Source of the DNA: Pseudobdellovibrionaceae bacterium
GTDB taxonomy: Bacteria > Bdellovibrionota > Bdellovibrionia > Bdellovibrionales > Bdellovibrionaceae
DNA: 64,000 bases
Direction of reading: 5' to 3'
NCBI GenBank assembly: GCA_019637955.1
Contig: JAHBUS010000004.1
Span: 248,001-312,000, forward strand
Shown: positions 2 to 64,000 of the stretch, in pieces
Layout of the letters: each line of letters begins with the position of its first letter
Position numbering within the stretch: position 1 is the first letter of the stretch
The notes under the pieces: model-generated
What the model was told of the DNA's origin: nothing
Seen by the model: the letters and a program-made list of their open reading frames with translations, nothing else
Databases searched by the model: none
Made by a program: the position numbers and the translations under genes

Positions 2-1177
2 GTGATTCGCGCTTTGTCCGAGGTGTTCGGCACGGCCAGCGATCAGATCTCTCACCGCTTGACCGGACCGCAAGAGGCCACCGTCGAGAATTTTCGTCGG
101 TGGGTCTCGACCGAGGTCAGCGAGCTCGCGGTCAGCCAACCTTATCCCTTCTGCTTGGCTTACGCTTGGGGCGATCGCAAAGATGAAAATTGGCGCCCCG
201 AAGAATGGGCGCTGGAGTGGAAGTACGACGGCATCCGCTCGCAAGTGATCCGGCGTGAAGACCACGTTTGGATCTGGTCTCGAGGCGAAGAGGAAATCAC
301 GGCGACCTTTCCGGAGCTCACCCAGGACTTTGCGGGCCTTGAGCCGGGCACCGTTCTGGATGGAGAGGTGGTCGTGCTTCGCGACGGCTTGGTCCAGCCT
401 TTTCAGGATTTGCAAAAAAGATTGGGCCGCAAAAAAGTCTCGGCCGCGACGTTGAAAGAGCAGCCCGCTGGATTTATCGCCTATGATTGCCTCGAGTGGA
501 AAGGCGAAGACATCCGCCAACGTCCCTTCTCCGAGCGCCGCAAAATTCTCGGCGAAGCCCTTGCGGGTTTGTCGAGTCCGCGACTCCAAGTCTCCCCGAT
601 TTTGTCGTTACCGCCCGGCTCGACACTCGACGATCTTGAAAGTCTGCGCTCCCAGTCCCGAGAAAACCGCGCCGAGGGCCTGATGCTCAAAGCTTGGGGT
701 AGTCCGTACATCGTGGGCCGTAAAATCGGCTACTGGTGGAAGCACAAAGTCGATCCCCTCACGCTCGACGCCGTTTTGATTTACGCGCAAGCCGGCACCG
801 GCCGACGGGCCAACCTTTACACCGATTACACGTTCGCCCTTTGGAAAGAAGAAGAGGGCGAACGTTTGCTCGTCCCCTTTGCCAAGGCGTACTCGGGTCT
901 CGATCAAGGCGAGATCGACGAACTCGATTCTTGGATTCGACGCCACACCGTCGAAAAATTTGGACCCGTTCGATCGTTGCGGCCCGAGCAAGTTTTCGAA
1001 CTTGGCTTCGAGGGGATTTCAAAATCCAACCGGCATAAATCTGGGATCGCCGTGCGGTTTCCGCGGATCTTGCGCTGGCGCAAAGATAAAAAACCCGCGG
1101 ATGCCGACAGCCTGGGGACGGCTCTTCAACTTCTCGACTCTGTCGCTCCCGCCCGCGAAGCCGAGGCCTCGCCATGA
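2..1177 (+). CDS. ATP-dependent DNA ligase, 5'-truncated by window edge
   Basis: Carboxy-terminal 391 residues of an ATP-dependent DNA ligase, which seals nicks through an enzyme-AMP intermediate. The frame is open to the left edge, so the amino-terminal DNA-binding part lies outside and the GTG at 2 is probably not the start. The adenylation motif EWKYDGIR is at residues 72-79, with K74 as the AMP-accepting lysine. DGEVV and WWKHK motifs follow, then an OB-fold-like tail. The stop overlaps the helicase start (ATGA). Ligases of this type are known to sit beside Lhr-like helicases and PdeM, and both follow here. Family is confident; only the start is missing. Confidence 0.93.
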   Translation: MIRALSEVFGTASDQISHRLTGPQEATVENFRRWVSTEVSELAVSQPYPFCLAYAWGDRKDENWRPEEWALEWKYDGIRSQVIRREDHVWIWSRGEEEITATFPELTQDFAGLEPGTVLDGEVVVLRDGLVQPFQDLQKRLGRKKVSAATLKEQPAGFIAYDCLEWKGEDIRQRPFSERRKILGEALAGLSSPRLQVSPILSLPPGSTLDDLESLRSQSRENRAEGLMLKAWGSPYIVGRKIGYWWKHKVDPLTLDAVLIYAQAGTGRRANLYTDYTFALWKEEEGERLLVPFAKAYSGLDQGEIDELDSWIRRHTVEKFGPVRSLRPEQVFELGFEGISKSNRHKSGIAVRFPRILRWRKDKKPADADSLGTALQLLDSVAPAREAEASP

Positions 1178-57878: not shown

Positions 57879-58075
57879 TGGCGATCTCAAAACCAAAGTC
57901 TTCATTCAAGACGAAGAAAAAGGATCGGATTGAATACCGAACCGTTAGCTATCGTCTGCCGGTAAAATTGCTGGATGCCCTAGATAAACACGTTAATAAT
58001 GACAACAGCGCCTGCAGCCTCGTCACACAGATGATGGAATGGGCTCTCGGCGATCTCGAAAGGCAAAAGAAATGA
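57878..58075 (+). CDS. Ribbon-helix-helix-like small protein
   Basis: A 65-residue basic protein. The second half (YRTVSYRLPVKLLDALDKHV, then a helix SLVTQMMEWALGDL) fits a ribbon-helix-helix DNA-binding fold: a strand followed by two helices. I chose the ATG at 57878, the only ATG that gives a compact domain; a longer frame starts at 57785. It overlaps the next gene's start (ATGA), so the two products are made together. Confidence 0.65.
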   Translation: MAISKPKSSFKTKKKDRIEYRTVSYRLPVKLLDALDKHVNNDNSACSLVTQMMEWALGDLERQKK

Positions 58076-58689
58076 GCAATTCGAGACCCTCTGCTGTTTG
58101 CTACGTGCGAAGTGATGAATGGCGCGATCTTCGCGAAATGCAAATCGCCGCAATTCATACATACGCTCGAGAAAATCACATAAGCCATCTTGAAACTTTT
58201 GAAGACGTGAACGACGACGGCGCCCCGTCACTTTGCACTGCCCTAACATTCGCGAAGCAACGCCGAGTAGACTTCTTCATCCTCTGGCGTCTGGATCGTG
58301 CAGGAGAGTGTGGGAGGTCCATTGAGAAAGTTGTCGAGATGGCTTCGGACCTTTGCGCCTCGGAGGTGAGATTTGTCTGCCTTCAGGATCATCTCGACTC
58401 TGAGCAGTCGGCCAAGGTCTTCCTGAGATTCCTGGTTCAAGCCGTCGCGCACGCAGCCCGTCTTATTAAAGGAGAACGCGTAAGCCATGCACTGAAAACG
58501 GCACGAGCGCTTGGAGAACCAGTTGGACGACCTTCATCCCGGGACGACGAACAAATACTTGAACTACGACGACAGGGTCACTCGCTACGCGAGATCGCCC
58601 TGCAGACTGGAGTGTCTATCTGGGCGGTCCAACGAGCCATCAAGCGATGGGCTGACGCCCAGGACGAAGGTCCAAACGCGGCACGTTAG
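58072..58689 (+). CDS. Degenerate serine recombinase family protein
   Basis: A 205-residue resolvase-like protein. The amino-terminal YVRSDEWRDLREMQ corresponds to the serine-recombinase start, but Arg and Ser are adjacent instead of one residue apart. LWRLDRAGECGRS stands where LDRLSRS is usual. Later blocks (FVCLQDHLDSEQSAKVFLRFL; LIKGERVSHALKTARALGEPVGRP) and a carboxy-terminal helix-turn-helix (HSLREIALQTGVSIWAVQRAI) are conserved. Either a divergent recombinase or a DNA-binding relic; it lies between the RHH gene and CBASS. Confidence 0.72.
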   Translation: MSNSRPSAVCYVRSDEWRDLREMQIAAIHTYARENHISHLETFEDVNDDGAPSLCTALTFAKQRRVDFFILWRLDRAGECGRSIEKVVEMASDLCASEVRFVCLQDHLDSEQSAKVFLRFLVQAVAHAARLIKGERVSHALKTARALGEPVGRPSSRDDEQILELRRQGHSLREIALQTGVSIWAVQRAIKRWADAQDEGPNAAR

Positions 58690-58795
58690 TTTCTGTTTTT
58701 TGTAACGCGGGCTTGCACTCTTTCGCATATTGGTGGTGAAATTATCTCGACTAGACGAACGTCGACTCGAAATTTCTGTCGCAAGGAGGCACAGG

Positions 58796-59965
58796 ATGTT
58801 CGGCGAAAGCACCACAACCCTTAGTTTTTCAACCGTTCCGAGCCACTACCGAGAGTTCAGCGACGATTTGCTCCTCGCTCAGATATGTCAGACGATTGGG
58901 CTGCCGAAGCACATGCACGACGACGCTGTCTCACGATATGAGGCTGTCGGAAAATGGCTCGCCGCAGATCCGCTTCTCCGCACGGCGAAGGTCCGGATCT
59001 ACCCGCAGGGCTCTTTGGCGATCGGAACAACCAATCGCCCCCTGAAGTTTGCCGAGTTCGACCTCGACGCCGTCGGCGAATGCGACCTCGATGTCGGGCC
59101 CCTTGAGATGCTCAACATCTACGAAGCTCGTCTCCGCGCAAACGCGACCTATGACCGAATCCTCGAACGGAAAAACCGCTGCCTCCGTCTCAATTATAAG
59201 AACAACTTCCACATCGACGTTCTCCCCGCGAAACCGAACTTCGATCTCCCGCACGGGTGCGTCCTGGTGCCCGATCGCGAACTGAAATGCTGGAAACACT
59301 CGGCGCCTAAAGGCTTTGCCCACTGGATTCAGGGGCGCTATCGGATCACGTTGGTCAAAAATTTTAGCGAGGTCCGCGATTATGTCGAACCCGCACCCGG
59401 CCATCAAGAACAGAAGGAAAAGTTCGTCCTTCAACTGGTGATCCAACTCATCAAGCGCGCCCGCGATGTCGAGTTCGAGGATCGCTGCGAACTTGCACCC
59501 GTGAGTATCGTTCTGACGACTTTGGCAGGCGAGCTTTACCATGGGGAGGTCACGGTCGCGAGCGCGGTCTCCAACTTCCTGCTTCGCCTACAGCACAAAA
59601 TTAAAATTGAAGGAATTCGCGGACCGTTAAAGGTTCACAACCCGGCAAACCAGCACGAGTTGTTAAGCGAACGTTGGGAGAAAAATCCCGAGGCATACGA
59701 AGCATTCTTGGTTTGGGTGCATGACTTCGCCGAAGTGTGGGAAACCTTCATCGAGTCGAAGGGTATTCACGCCAAGGCGAGAATTTTGGAAAGCCTCTTT
59801 GGTGATCCCGTGAAGGGCGTCGTACTCGACGAAGTGAAACGCTTTGAGGCTGCTCGAGCCACAAGCTCACTCCACGTCGCGGGTTCAGGCAGCCTCATCA
59901 TCGGATCTTCGGCGGCCGCTGGTCTGCGCCCCGTCCAAAAGAACACCTTCTTCGGTGACTTATGA
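58796..59965 (+). CDS. CBASS CD-NTase (cGAS/DncV-like nucleotidyltransferase)
   Basis: A 389-residue nucleotidyltransferase that should make a cyclic di- or trinucleotide alarm signal upon phage infection. The catalytic block is PQGSLAIGT (GS at 72-73), FDLD gives D89 and D91, and HIDVLP gives D141: a complete metal triad. The carboxy terminus is NTFFGDL. I chose the ATG at 58796, six bases after AAGGAGG; an upstream open frame has no such site. It overlaps the E2 gene (ATGA). Product and clade cannot be fixed by eye. Confidence 0.92.
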   Translation: MFGESTTTLSFSTVPSHYREFSDDLLLAQICQTIGLPKHMHDDAVSRYEAVGKWLAADPLLRTAKVRIYPQGSLAIGTTNRPLKFAEFDLDAVGECDLDVGPLEMLNIYEARLRANATYDRILERKNRCLRLNYKNNFHIDVLPAKPNFDLPHGCVLVPDRELKCWKHSAPKGFAHWIQGRYRITLVKNFSEVRDYVEPAPGHQEQKEKFVLQLVIQLIKRARDVEFEDRCELAPVSIVLTTLAGELYHGEVTVASAVSNFLLRLQHKIKIEGIRGPLKVHNPANQHELLSERWEKNPEAYEAFLVWVHDFAEVWETFIESKGIHAKARILESLFGDPVKGVVLDEVKRFEAARATSSLHVAGSGSLIIGSSAAAGLRPVQKNTFFGDL

Positions 59966-60402
59966 GCGGACCGGCACATCAACCCAGACGACGCGTTCCG
60001 GCTGCAATGCAGGCGCTGACCATGAAACAGAAGTGGCCGTCCCTCAAAATGTGCTCTCTGAAAGCGGGAAAAATCATCTGGCGGGGAAAAATTCAGCCGA
60101 CGCCGATCAGCCAAGAGTATGAGGTCGAGTTTCGTTTTCGCATGAACGAAGCTCCCGTCATCAAAGTGCTATCGCCCAAGTTGGAGTTGGCGAAAGGTGC
60201 AGAAAAGCTCCCGCACGTTTACGAAGGCGATCATCTTTGTCTGTATTACCCCCGCTTCCGGGAATGGACGAGCGCTAAACAGGTCGCCGATACGCTCGTT
60301 CCTTGGACCTGTCTCTGGCTCTTTCATTACGAGATCTGGGTTCTGACCGGAGAATGGCATGGCGGCGGGAAGCATCCGTCCGTGGGGCGCCGTAATGAAT
60401 AA
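59962..60402 (+). CDS. CBASS E2-like conjugation protein (type II-short)
   Basis: A 146-residue protein with the pattern of the prokaryotic E2-like family of short type II CBASS: YEVEFRFRMNEAPVIKVLSPKL, LCLYYPRFREW, LVPWTCLWLFHYEIW and TGEWHGGGKHPS. Cys117 in PWTCLW is the candidate thioester residue. There is no E1/JAB gene, which is what makes it 'short'. In this system E2 is known to bind and modify the CD-NTase carboxy terminus. Start and stop overlap both neighbours. Confidence 0.85.
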   Translation: MSGPAHQPRRRVPAAMQALTMKQKWPSLKMCSLKAGKIIWRGKIQPTPISQEYEVEFRFRMNEAPVIKVLSPKLELAKGAEKLPHVYEGDHLCLYYPRFREWTSAKQVADTLVPWTCLWLFHYEIWVLTGEWHGGGKHPSVGRRNE

Positions 60403-61537
60403 GAGAAAATCACGGAAGCCCATCAGCGAGAAAACTAAAATCAAGCTTTGGATGCGGGCAGGAGGACGTTGCCAATATGAGGGCTGCAACGCGCCTCTCT
60501 GGCAAGACGACGTTACTATGACCAAAATGAACAAGGCCTATCTGGCCCACATCGTCGCGGATAGTCCGCGCGGAAAACGCGGACATAAGGTGCTGTCGCG
60601 GAAGCTGGCTACCGATTTCAATAACCTCATGCTCCTCTGCGATACGCACCATCGACTTATTGACGTCGAAGCACCCGAAGCCCACTCCGTCGACCGCCTG
60701 GCCCAGATGAAAGAGATCCATGAACAAAGGATCGAGGCCCAGACGAGCGTCCATTTCGACAGAAAAACCGAGATCCTTCTTTATGGAGCCAATATCGGTG
60801 CGCAAGCCGCTCCGCTTTCCTACTCAAAAGCCGCCTTGGCCATTTCTCCTCATCGTTACCCTGTGAGTCCTGCCGGGATCTCGTTGAGCATGAAAAACAG
60901 TTCGTTCCGTGAAACCGATGATACATTTTGGGCACTAGAAAAAGAGAATCTCCAGCGCCTCTTTGACCAGCGTGTTCGCCCCCTGGTCATCGACGGCACC
61001 ATCAAGCACCTTTCGGTGTTCGGCCTGGCTCCGCAGCCCTTATTGGTTTTACTTGGCTCTCTAATCACCGACATCAACGAAGCTGATGTCTTTCAACTTC
61101 ACCGAGAACCATCGGGCTGGAATTGGCCAGACATCAAAGCAACCAAGGCTTTTACAGTTGAAGAGCCAACGGCCTTCAACAAACCACCCGCCCTCGTTCT
61201 GTCTCTGAGCGCGGACATTGCCGATCAACGCATCTCTGACGCCTTGGGTGAAGGCAACTACTCGCTGTGGAAAGTAACGACGCAAGCTCCTCACATTGAT
61301 TTTTTGAAAAGCCCTGAACAGCTTCGACATTTTCGCTCCCTCATGCGGACTCTGCTAAACAAAATAAAGATGAAACACGGCGAGGGCCACCATATCCATC
61401 TGTTCCCGGCCGCGCCGGTCGCTGTCTGCGTTGAGCTTGGACGAGTAAGGATGCCGAAAGCAGATCTGCCTTTCAGAATTTACGACCAGCTTTGGAAGGG
61501 TCAAAAGACCGGATTTTTTCCGGCCCTGGATCTATGA
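60395..61537 (+). CDS. cap5: Cap5-type HNH-SAVED CBASS effector
   Basis: A 380-residue effector. The amino-terminal HNH nuclease has zinc Cys (RCQYEGC, 26 and 31; LCDTHH at 81-86) and AHIVADSPRG with the catalytic His52. A SAVED domain follows from about 165 (HLSVFGLAPQPLLVLLGSLI; HHIHLFPAAPVAVCVELGR), which senses the cyclic nucleotide and triggers DNA degradation. The ATG at 60395 overlaps the E2 3' end by eight bases; an upstream in-frame ATG (60359) is possible. Length is normal for Cap5. Confidence 0.93.
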   Translation: MNKRKSRKPISEKTKIKLWMRAGGRCQYEGCNAPLWQDDVTMTKMNKAYLAHIVADSPRGKRGHKVLSRKLATDFNNLMLLCDTHHRLIDVEAPEAHSVDRLAQMKEIHEQRIEAQTSVHFDRKTEILLYGANIGAQAAPLSYSKAALAISPHRYPVSPAGISLSMKNSSFRETDDTFWALEKENLQRLFDQRVRPLVIDGTIKHLSVFGLAPQPLLVLLGSLITDINEADVFQLHREPSGWNWPDIKATKAFTVEEPTAFNKPPALVLSLSADIADQRISDALGEGNYSLWKVTTQAPHIDFLKSPEQLRHFRSLMRTLLNKIKMKHGEGHHIHLFPAAPVAVCVELGRVRMPKADLPFRIYDQLWKGQKTGFFPALDL

Positions 61538-61565
61538 AAATTTGAATCAACCAAGGAGGAAGCCC

Positions 61566-61769
61566 ATGGCAAAATATAACCGAAATAGCGGCAACGCGTG
61601 GACGACAGGTGAGGTTAAACAAGTCAGAGACCTTGCCAAGCAAAACACGCCGACAAGAGTTATCGGCCTGAAGCTGGGCCGAACGGAGGACGCCGTGCGT
61701 ACTCGCGCTTCTCAAGAGGGTATTTCGCTGAAACCCACCAATCAAAGCCCTTATAACAGGAAGAAGTAA
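61566..61769 (+). CDS. Small SANT/HTH-like protein downstream of CBASS
   Basis: A 67-residue basic protein: MAKYNRNSGNAWTTGEVKQV, then ARQ-like LAKQNTPTRVIGLKLGRTEDAVRTRASQEGISLKP, a three-helix SANT/Myb-like DNA-binding pattern. The end is YNRKK. A strong ribosome site (AAGGAGG) and 28 bases to cap5 suggest operon membership. I recall similar short proteins annotated only as hypothetical. Its stop overlaps the next gene (TAATG). Function unknown, probably regulatory. Confidence 0.8.
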   Translation: MAKYNRNSGNAWTTGEVKQVRDLAKQNTPTRVIGLKLGRTEDAVRTRASQEGISLKPTNQSPYNRKK

Positions 61770-62617
61770 TGACCGACCTCCCTGAGCATGAAGTGGGCAA
61801 GGAACAGGTAAAGCGAGAGTTAGACGCTGCCCTTTCGGGAGGCAGCGGCCCGAAGCTTGCCCGGTTCGCGCTCGCTGTCCTTAGCGGCGCAGTTCCCTAT
61901 GCCGGAGGCCTAATAGGCGCCGCCGGAGGCGCCTGGTCTGAGAAGGAAAATGAACGTTTTCAGCGCATCCTCAAGGCCTGGTTAAAACTTCAAGAGGACG
62001 AGATTAAAGAAATTGGTCAAACCCTTGTGGAAGTGATGGCCCGTCTCGATCAGCAAGACGAAAAGGTTCAACTGCGAATCGAGAGCGCCGAATACATGAA
62101 GATACTGAAGAAGTGTTTTCGTGACTGGTCGGCCGCCGAAAGTGAAGAGAAGCGCATCTTGATCCGAAACCTCTTAGTCAACGCCGCCTCGCCGGGAATC
62201 ACCCCTGACGATATCATTCGGTTGTTCATTGAATGGATTGGCCGATACAGCGAACTACACTTCAAAGTCATTCGTGCTGTTTATAACCATGACGGCATTA
62301 CAAGGGCTGAAATCTGGGAACAGATACATGGTAATAACGTAAGCGAAAACTCTGCCGAGGCGGACCTCTTCAAAATCATCATCCATGATTTAAGCGTTGG
62401 CCACATCATCCGTCAGCATCGTGAAGTCGATTACAATGGGAACTTTGTCAGGCAGCCCCCAAAACGGGCACCAAAAGGCTCCGGTCGATCTTCAACTTAT
62501 ACTTCCGCCTTCGACGGAGAGAAACAATACGAGCTGACTGGCCTTGGACAACAATTCGTTCATTACACGATGGACGAGGTCATCACGAAGATTGCGGGCG
62601 GCAAAGCTAGTCTTTAG
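61769..62617 (+). CDS. Hypothetical protein with glycine-rich hydrophobic segment
   Basis: A 282-residue protein with no domain name I can give. Residues about 30-56 (LARFALAVLSGAVPYAGGLIGAAGG) form a Gly/Ala-rich hydrophobic hairpin like those of membrane-inserting effectors. Residues about 60-130 are charged helices (MARLDQQDEKVQLRIESAEYMK). The rest includes a winged-helix-like HDGITRAEIWEQI. It starts on the last base of the previous gene. Effector, antitoxin or regulator are all possible; its position after Cap5 makes defence likely. Confidence 0.8.
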   Translation: MTDLPEHEVGKEQVKRELDAALSGGSGPKLARFALAVLSGAVPYAGGLIGAAGGAWSEKENERFQRILKAWLKLQEDEIKEIGQTLVEVMARLDQQDEKVQLRIESAEYMKILKKCFRDWSAAESEEKRILIRNLLVNAASPGITPDDIIRLFIEWIGRYSELHFKVIRAVYNHDGITRAEIWEQIHGNNVSENSAEADLFKIIIHDLSVGHIIRQHREVDYNGNFVRQPPKRAPKGSGRSSTYTSAFDGEKQYELTGLGQQFVHYTMDEVITKIAGGKASL

Positions 62618-62711
62618 TTTGTAACAAACGGTGTTCCGGAATGCCGTGAACCACCAACGAAGCTTGTCCCGCCGGCCAAAAGCGCAAGGTTTGATCGAAT
62701 TCAAACTGAAA

Positions 62712-63467
62712 CTATTGTTGTGGCCGAACGTTACCAAAAGCTGTGAGTAACTCATTGTACATCTGATCGACAACCAAATCTTTTCCACCATCGTTGACTC
62801 TATTCACAAGCTCTCCGACTGGAATTTCGCCCTGATTCAACAAATGCACATGTTGGTATGCCTGACCACGCTCCCGAGAAATAAACGCTTTGAGGTAGTC
62901 AAAATCGAGATCCGATGGGCACCATTCAGTTCCGGCTCCGCGAATAACGAATTTGACGACACTTTCCACCGCGTATCGGAAATCTTCAAATCCCGCCGTG
63001 CTGCTTCCGGGACTATAAAAAATTGGCGAAATGTCGTGCTTGCCAAAATACTCTCCGCGAACCCTCGAAATAATAAGCCGGAAATAGGATTTCAAAAACA
63101 TTCGCTCAAATGTTTCATCGTCACTATCGAAATTCATGTCGGCACCGGGACCAAACCTAAGAACGCGCCCTCGCCAGTTCGTTTCCAACCGACTTTCCAT
63201 CTTATCAATTCTGTTACTACCCCTCAGGGCTTCCAGGCTTAAGAACGGGTCGACAAACGTTTGATCAAGACTCAACCCCTTTCGCATCAGAAAGTCGCGC
63301 AAATCATCTTCGCGATCCAAACTCAGGCCTACAACCACAACAGACCGTCTTTTGCGAATTTCCTTATCGTGAAAGTTCTGAGGATCAACCATGATCTCAA
63401 AGCCTGAACTGATATTGTTGCTCTGAAGGAATTTTGTCATTTCGGCCAAAATTGTAGACCGTCTCAT
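62712..63467 (-). CDS. Hypothetical protein coupled to an AbiGi-like gene
   Basis: A 251-residue soluble protein of no recognised family. The start reads MRRSTILAEMTKFLQSNN; a middle part has VVVVGLSLDREDDLRDFL and FLSLEALRGSNRIDKMESRLE. No signal or membrane segment. It overlaps the AbiGi-like stop (TAATG), so the two form an operon facing the CBASS genes. By position it may be the toxin or partner of the AbiGi-like protein; this is inference only. Confidence 0.65.
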   Translation of the reverse strand: MRRSTILAEMTKFLQSNNISSGFEIMVDPQNFHDKEIRKRRSVVVVGLSLDREDDLRDFLMRKGLSLDQTFVDPFLSLEALRGSNRIDKMESRLETNWRGRVLRFGPGADMNFDSDDETFERMFLKSYFRLIISRVRGEYFGKHDISPIFYSPGSSTAGFEDFRYAVESVVKFVIRGAGTEWCPSDLDFDYLKAFISRERGQAYQHVHLLNQGEIPVGELVNRVNDGGKDLVVDQMYNELLTAFGNVRPQQ

Positions 63468-64000
63468 TACTGCTCCCCAAGTGAGGACTCGCCTCTCGAT
63501 CTCAGCCTATACATATCTTTTGCTGTTATTAGCCCCACTCCATGGCGAACAAGGGCTCGGAGTTTCGGAAACTTATCAGACAAGAAGGATCTTTCCGGGA
63601 CCAGAATGTATGCAAGATCATCAAGCGTGATTTTGATTTCTTCGACGGCTCGCCACTCACGTTCTTCATATATTGACTCGAATAGCTCCGAATTGTCGGT
63701 CGGATCAATTCTGCCGACTGGGCCAAGTCGAGTTGGAATTTTCACGAAGTCCGCTAACCTGACATCACGCTCAAATAACTCCCAGAAACGCTTCGTTTCC
63801 CCTTCACGCCTGAGTATCGCTTCGTCAATGTGGGGATAGTAAAGAACCGGCTTCAGCTTATCAAAAAAGGGGCTTTCATTGACCTTGCCTCTCTTGACAC
63901 CAATTCCGATATCCCCATACTTGCTCATGTGAATCGGAAGACTTCCAATCGGAATATCGCAAAAGCATAGTGCCTTAGGCTCACTAACGAAATACTCTTC
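63467..64000 (-). CDS. AbiGi-like abortive infection protein, 5'-truncated by window edge
   Basis: The frame stays open from the stop at 63467 to the right edge, giving 177 residues without a start. The edge part reads ALCFCDIPIGSLPIHMSKYG, then GIGVKRGKVN, PVLYYPH, and late EEREWRAVEEIKI: the block order of the AbiGi family, the antitoxin-like partner in the AbiG abortive-infection system. A Met at 63928 is internal. The coupled downstream gene is not AbiGii by eye. Confidence 0.6.
   Translation of the reverse strand, partial: EEYFVSEPKALCFCDIPIGSLPIHMSKYGDIGIGVKRGKVNESPFFDKLKPVLYYPHIDEAILRREGETKRFWELFERDVRLADFVKIPTRLGPVGRIDPTDNSELFESIYEEREWRAVEEIKITLDDLAYILVPERSFLSDKFPKLRALVRHGVGLITAKDMYRLRSRGESSLGEQ

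Follow-up and report, generated by a model that had tools for sequence, protein, structure and literature searches.

Two genes behind a type II-short CBASS operon of a Pseudobdellovibrionaceae bacterium, a 67-aa helix-turn-helix gene and a 282-aa orphan gene, do not travel together

Small or paired regulators described at defence operons include CapH/CapP, CapW and CapK/CapS (PMC13373217), and RptR, which has 79 aa (PMC12255303). On the effector side, Abi-alpha (DUF4393; PFAM ID: PF14337) is a single-gene abortive infection system from an Enterococcus prophage (PMC6356687). Type II-short CBASS operons with the gene order CD-NTase, E2 and Cap5 are found on Sinorhizobium and Agrobacterium plasmids, and these operons end at cap5.

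We analysed 64 000 nucleotides of a contig from a Pseudobdellovibrionaceae bacterium (the whole of this stretch is the window, to which all unprefixed positions refer). The system in the window is a type II-short CBASS: PADLOC and Pfam identify its genes, as the preliminary description of this DNA had named them, as those for a CD-NTase, an E2-like protein and Cap5 (Table 1). It has the same gene order as the plasmid operons (∼44% identity in Cap5), but these carry neither of the two genes that follow cap5 here. The layout of the two genes is as had been reported: an ORF for 67 aa and one for 282 aa lie behind cap5, the start of the second overlapping the stop of the first (TAATG, shared position 61769), and the gap between the end of the cap5 stop (61537) and the first ATG (61566) is 28 nt and holds the strong ribosome-binding site claimed for it. 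Both ORFs are real genes, since they have homologues at 57–72% identity (67 aa) and 58–65% identity (282 aa), and purifying selection is seen among the 282-aa homologues (pN ∼0.3 against a saturated pS).

Table 1. The CBASS genes, the two genes behind them and their features (positions in the window)
Feature	Position	Strand	Basis
CD-NTase, CBASS nucleotide cyclase	58730..59965	+	PADLOC Cyclase 2.6e-88; Pfam SMODS 2.9e-9
E2-like protein, type II-short CBASS	59962..60402	+	PADLOC E2 1e-47
Cap5, HNH-SAVED endonuclease effector	60359..61537	+	PADLOC 1.4e-146; Pfam SAVED 2.6e-45
AAGGAGG ribosome-binding site	61553..61559	+	Sequence reading; 6 nt before first ATG
67-aa predicted Myb/GcrA-type helix-turn-helix protein, near-invariant tail SLKPTNQSPY	61566..61769	+	AlphaFold, fold matches, 25-sequence alignment
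282-aa orphan protein: putative glycine-zipper hydrophobic hairpin, helical middle, probable C-terminal winged helix	61769..62617	+	Six-member alignment, hydropathy
Putative hydrophobic hairpin, conserved, residues 33–55, G46xxxG50xxxG54 zipper	61865..61933	+	Alignment, hydropathy
Predicted winged-helix-like C-terminal domain, residues 162–274, ends YELTxLGQQFVHY	62252..62590	+	Conserved pattern, low-confidence secondary structure

Because plus-strand promoter- or terminator-like sites were absent from 58500–63000 in a consensus scan, cap5 and the two genes are likely to lie on one transcript; the two genes would be translationally coupled to each other and probably co-transcribed with the CBASS operon. 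Such a layout could mean that both are CBASS accessories, the helix-turn-helix protein adjusting expression of the operon and the 282-aa protein acting as a second effector for the same cyclic nucleotide or as a modifier of Cap5. We regard this as unlikely: the common strand, the tight spacing and the result of the scan agree with it, as does the fact that the 67-aa gene leads two other CBASS operons after a divergent CapH/CapP pair (loci L072 and L006, see below), but no nucleotide-binding domain was found in either protein, both genes are missing behind cap5 in five related Cap5 operons, and the other 282-aa loci are without CBASS.

Neither protein is a known CBASS component, as had been stated: the 67-aa protein has no match in Pfam (E 1), NCBIfam or PADLOC, and the 282-aa protein has none above cut-off in these libraries. 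For the smaller protein, the HTH part is matched by PHROG 323 (D5-like regulator, 4e-10), and an alignment of 25 sequences shows W12, TPT (28–30), R39 and the tail SL.P.NQ.PY to be invariant. The AlphaFold model has helices at residues 14–25, 30–37 and 41–51 (pLDDT 78 overall, ∼89 in the core), and among solved structures it comes closest to the GcrA DNA-binding domain and Myb repeats. The best-ranked is the DNA-binding domain of Caulobacter GcrA (rmsd 2.5 over 48 residues for PDB 5yiu and 0.9 over 44 for 5yiv; 23–25% identity) with a Z score of 7.2, a value below the 8 under which a match can be a common arrangement of helices, and the c-Myb and Cdc5 repeats are tied with it (Z 5.7–7). The top sequence-profile matches, though weak, are the SANT domain of DNAJC1 and the Myb domain of DMTF1. 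With a three-helix fold, a tryptophan in the first helix (W12) and Myb/SANT structure matches, the protein is by prediction a DNA-binding-type HTH protein of the Myb/SANT-like kind, and the earlier SANT/HTH-like label is retained. It differs from GcrA in lacking a Pfam match and in having the conserved tail SLKPTNQSPY after its HTH; GcrA is also longer than this one-domain protein.

Like CapH/CapP, CapW, CapK/CapS and RptR, the 67-aa protein is a small protein, predicted to bind DNA, that is encoded with a defence operon. In contrast to these regulators, its gene stands here behind the operon, and most of its relatives have no defence neighbour. Neither CapS (STAS-wHTH) nor RptR is among the PDB profile matches of the 67-aa protein; RptR, a four-helix repressor, does not fit as its identity, and the same applies to SrpA, which is XRE-type.

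The 67-aa family was found in 55 IMG/VR loci, which represent 23 distinct contexts; in many of these cases the gene stands by itself within the tail region of a Pseudomonas-type prophage (L003, L016–L043, L073–L099). The family is also present in Pseudomonas phage records and on rhizobial plasmids, where the plasmid neighbours are ordinary. In the window's own phylum the protein was found in three of 291 genomes, adjoining defence genes in all three, which is suggestive of a tie to defence operons within this phylum, for a small sample of three genomes to which the window was not drawn independently. In our reading, temperate phages are the main carriers of the family, which is at times parked beside defence operons; the protein most likely acts as a small local transcription regulator and may tune expression in the island.

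Several of its loci can be described individually. In contig 4 of genome G305 (same phylum; L072:1981–5231) a divergent CapH/CapP pair is directly followed by a type I CBASS (CD-NTase, 2TM effector) that the 67-aa HTH gene opens; a gene for a type I restriction methylase adjoins. In contig 64 of genome G125, the third carrier in this phylum (L071:5152–11067), the 67-aa gene lies between a locus for multiubiquitin/E2, E1-like and DUF6527 proteins and an AccI-type restriction-modification pair. On plasmid 1 of Polaromonas sp. JS666 (L006:4650–9803) the gene of a divergent relative overlaps that of TRIP13 and heads a type III CBASS (TRIP13, HORMA, cyclase and NucC), which stands behind divergent HTH and ImmA/IrrE genes. 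An IMG/VR locus (L038:4671–11245) has a row of genes for a WYL regulator, a small hydrolase, the 67-aa HTH protein, an SNF2/NOV_C helicase and an AAA ATPase; this row is possibly a DISARM-like or unnamed defence locus.

The 282-aa family is rare and scattered. A pattern scan of ∼85 000 species genomes gave four relatives (a planctomycete, an Omnitrophota bin, an acidobacterium and Melioribacter) at 59–65% best-segment identity, and a profile search added one acidobacterial relative at 41% and one broken fragment. The family considered here therefore consists of six intact members, the window's protein and five relatives at 41–65% identity, several of which come from fragmentary bins, where contigs may have been wrongly assigned. 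We found no relatives in plasmids, phages or IMG/VR, and none in 369 genomes of the window's own phylum except the window's own. The Pfam hints on these proteins (TerB, DHH_CID, RelB and others) are under cut-off and differ between homologues, and were set aside; weak profile matches at L047, L048 and L054 were discarded, the ORFs seen at L047 and L054 being ordinary genes.

A Gly/Ala-rich segment is the most hydrophobic stretch of the 282-aa protein (best 19-residue window 33–51). All six intact members have A-L-x4-G-x2-P-x2-GG in common, and small residues occupy positions 46, 50 and 54. The hydrophobic hairpin noted in the preliminary description is thus a segment conserved across the whole family, as judged from the alignment; hydropathy at the site (KD19 1.6–1.9 in the six members) is modest for a transmembrane helix. 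The helical middle is strongly conserved, and the C-terminal part probably folds as a winged helix. An AlphaFold model built from five sequences reached a pLDDT of only 48 and was excluded from the fold search, so that hairpin and winged helix are both read from sequence alone. The earlier division into a DNA-binding regulator and a membrane effector holds as far as the predicted HTH fold and the hairpin go, but the split into two roles is too simple, since the 282-aa protein probably has a winged helix of its own.

Three of the five relatives' loci have defence-type genes near the 282-aa gene: in L008 it is separated by 345 bp from an upstream AIPR gene; in L009 a Mom-like gene is upstream and a PDC-S18 gene (2e-131) is ∼3 kb downstream, not adjacent; in L010 a trypsin-like gene of PDC-S45 type (1e-24) adjoins. 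L007 is a short contig without a defence neighbour, L045 has non-defence genes around the 282-aa gene, and CBASS was found at none of the five loci. The window itself was picked for its CBASS and is not an independent count of defence context. With CBASS and an AbiGi-like gene in the window and defence-type neighbours at three of five other loci, the defence setting proposed earlier is supported. As a control, PADLOC was run on 46 ORFs from seven other stretches of the window's genome, which represent that genome and not those of the 282-aa relatives; all matches were generic (best 2.4e-36).

These contexts also bear on the view that the two genes are passengers, cargo that landed by chance behind cap5 in a mobile island and has no defence role. 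The 67-aa gene is mostly a lone phage tail-region gene or a lone plasmid gene among ordinary neighbours, and the 282-aa relative in L045 sits among non-defence genes, much as this view would predict; purifying selection, which is strong in the 282-aa family, and this family's repeated defence-type neighbours, of a kind rare in the control stretches, argue against it, and we consider it distinctly unlikely.

Abi-alpha and the 282-aa protein share a similar size, a helical middle and a C-terminal YxxTxxGxxFV motif. Comparison with PF14337, however, gave no match for the window's protein in the Pfam search and a sub-threshold one for the L007 relative (E 0.15; 12.5 bits, against a Pfam cut-off of 29 bits), and a comparison of the two profiles, built from six and three sequences, gave a probability of 19% over 21 columns only. 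Membership of the 282-aa protein in the Abi-alpha family is therefore unsupported. The tyrosine recombinase gene of L010 and the DUF2188 ORF of L007 had suggested an origin as an integron cassette, which was rejected: two scans found no attC sites beside the 282-aa genes of the window and L007–L010.

The preliminary description had proposed that the two genes form a candidate defence module, as a second arm of the operon or a stand-alone system. Their distributions do not support this. The closest 282-aa relatives come from four genomes or bins (draft assemblies, in which absence is not proof), none of which has a relative of the 67-aa protein; the 282-aa gene and the window's CBASS proteins are absent from all 55 IMG/VR loci carrying the 67-aa family, and the 282-aa gene was not found in the phage and plasmid records that carry this family. 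The 67-aa protein, alone, heads two unrelated CBASS operons (L072 and L006). A conserved two-gene module is rejected, given the four 282-aa genomes without a 67-aa relative and the Cap5 relatives without either gene; since the genes fail to travel together, the pair should not be recorded as a single new system. In the window the two may still have a local and recent partnership. Homologues standing mostly alone had been named as the outcome that would count against the proposal; this is what we found for the 67-aa gene and, in part, for the 282-aa gene, which is never with the 67-aa gene but lies near defence-type genes at the three loci above.

A related reading is a true two-gene module for defence or of toxin-antitoxin-like type. 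As is common in TA pairs, the 282-aa protein would be a membrane toxin, and the 67-aa HTH protein would repress or neutralise it. The TAATG coupling and the order, small HTH gene then effector gene, speak for it, and other small ORFs directly precede the 282-aa gene elsewhere (DUF2188, 82 aa, in L007; an unassigned ORF for 83 aa in L008), so the gene may usually have a small partner before it, of a family that changes. In L009 and L010, however, the position immediately upstream is not taken by a small ORF of this kind, and together with the separate distributions of the two genes this leaves such a module quite unlikely.

The explanation that we prefer, and hold with middling confidence, is that two independently mobile genes, not an ancient pair, joined the 3′ end of the CBASS operon in a defence island, the 67-aa gene encoding a regulator and the 282-aa gene a single-gene membrane effector of abortive-infection type. 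The 282-aa protein would then most likely be the effector of a rare, widely scattered orphan family: its helical and winged-helix C-terminal part would sense infection or keep the protein inactive, and its N-terminal glycine-zipper hairpin would then insert into, or oligomerise at, the inner membrane, killing the cell and giving an anti-phage effect. In outline this putative mechanism resembles that of Abi-alpha, a family in which membership of the 282-aa protein is unsupported (see above). A more specific version, in which the 282-aa protein is a zipper-hairpin effector controlled by its winged helix and the 67-aa protein is also a portable regulator of CBASS, ubiquitin-like and restriction loci, borrowed by temperate phages, is tentative and, taken as a whole, doubtful. 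Should phage protection by the 282-aa protein be real, the protein would represent an undescribed effector family missed by current defence-finding libraries; should the 67-aa protein control the operons beside it, this would make it a plug-in regulator that passes between phages and the immunity of their hosts.

The GC content is mostly 54–58% in sampled stretches of the genome and ∼46% from ∼56.5 kb of the window onwards, continuing past the window end (L060), the CBASS stretch excepted. From this drop, the CBASS operon appears to be placed in a horizontally acquired low-GC island. A resolvase-type recombinase gene is found at 58039–58689, just upstream of CBASS; the apparent island carries CBASS, this recombinase gene and Abi-like genes. 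The latter are downstream of the 282-aa gene on the minus strand: an AbiGi-like gene (63470–63928), barely over the Pfam cut-off, is adjoined by a gene for 251 aa without a family match (62712–63467), and the two are perhaps an AbiG-type pair that extends beyond the window end (62712–64000).
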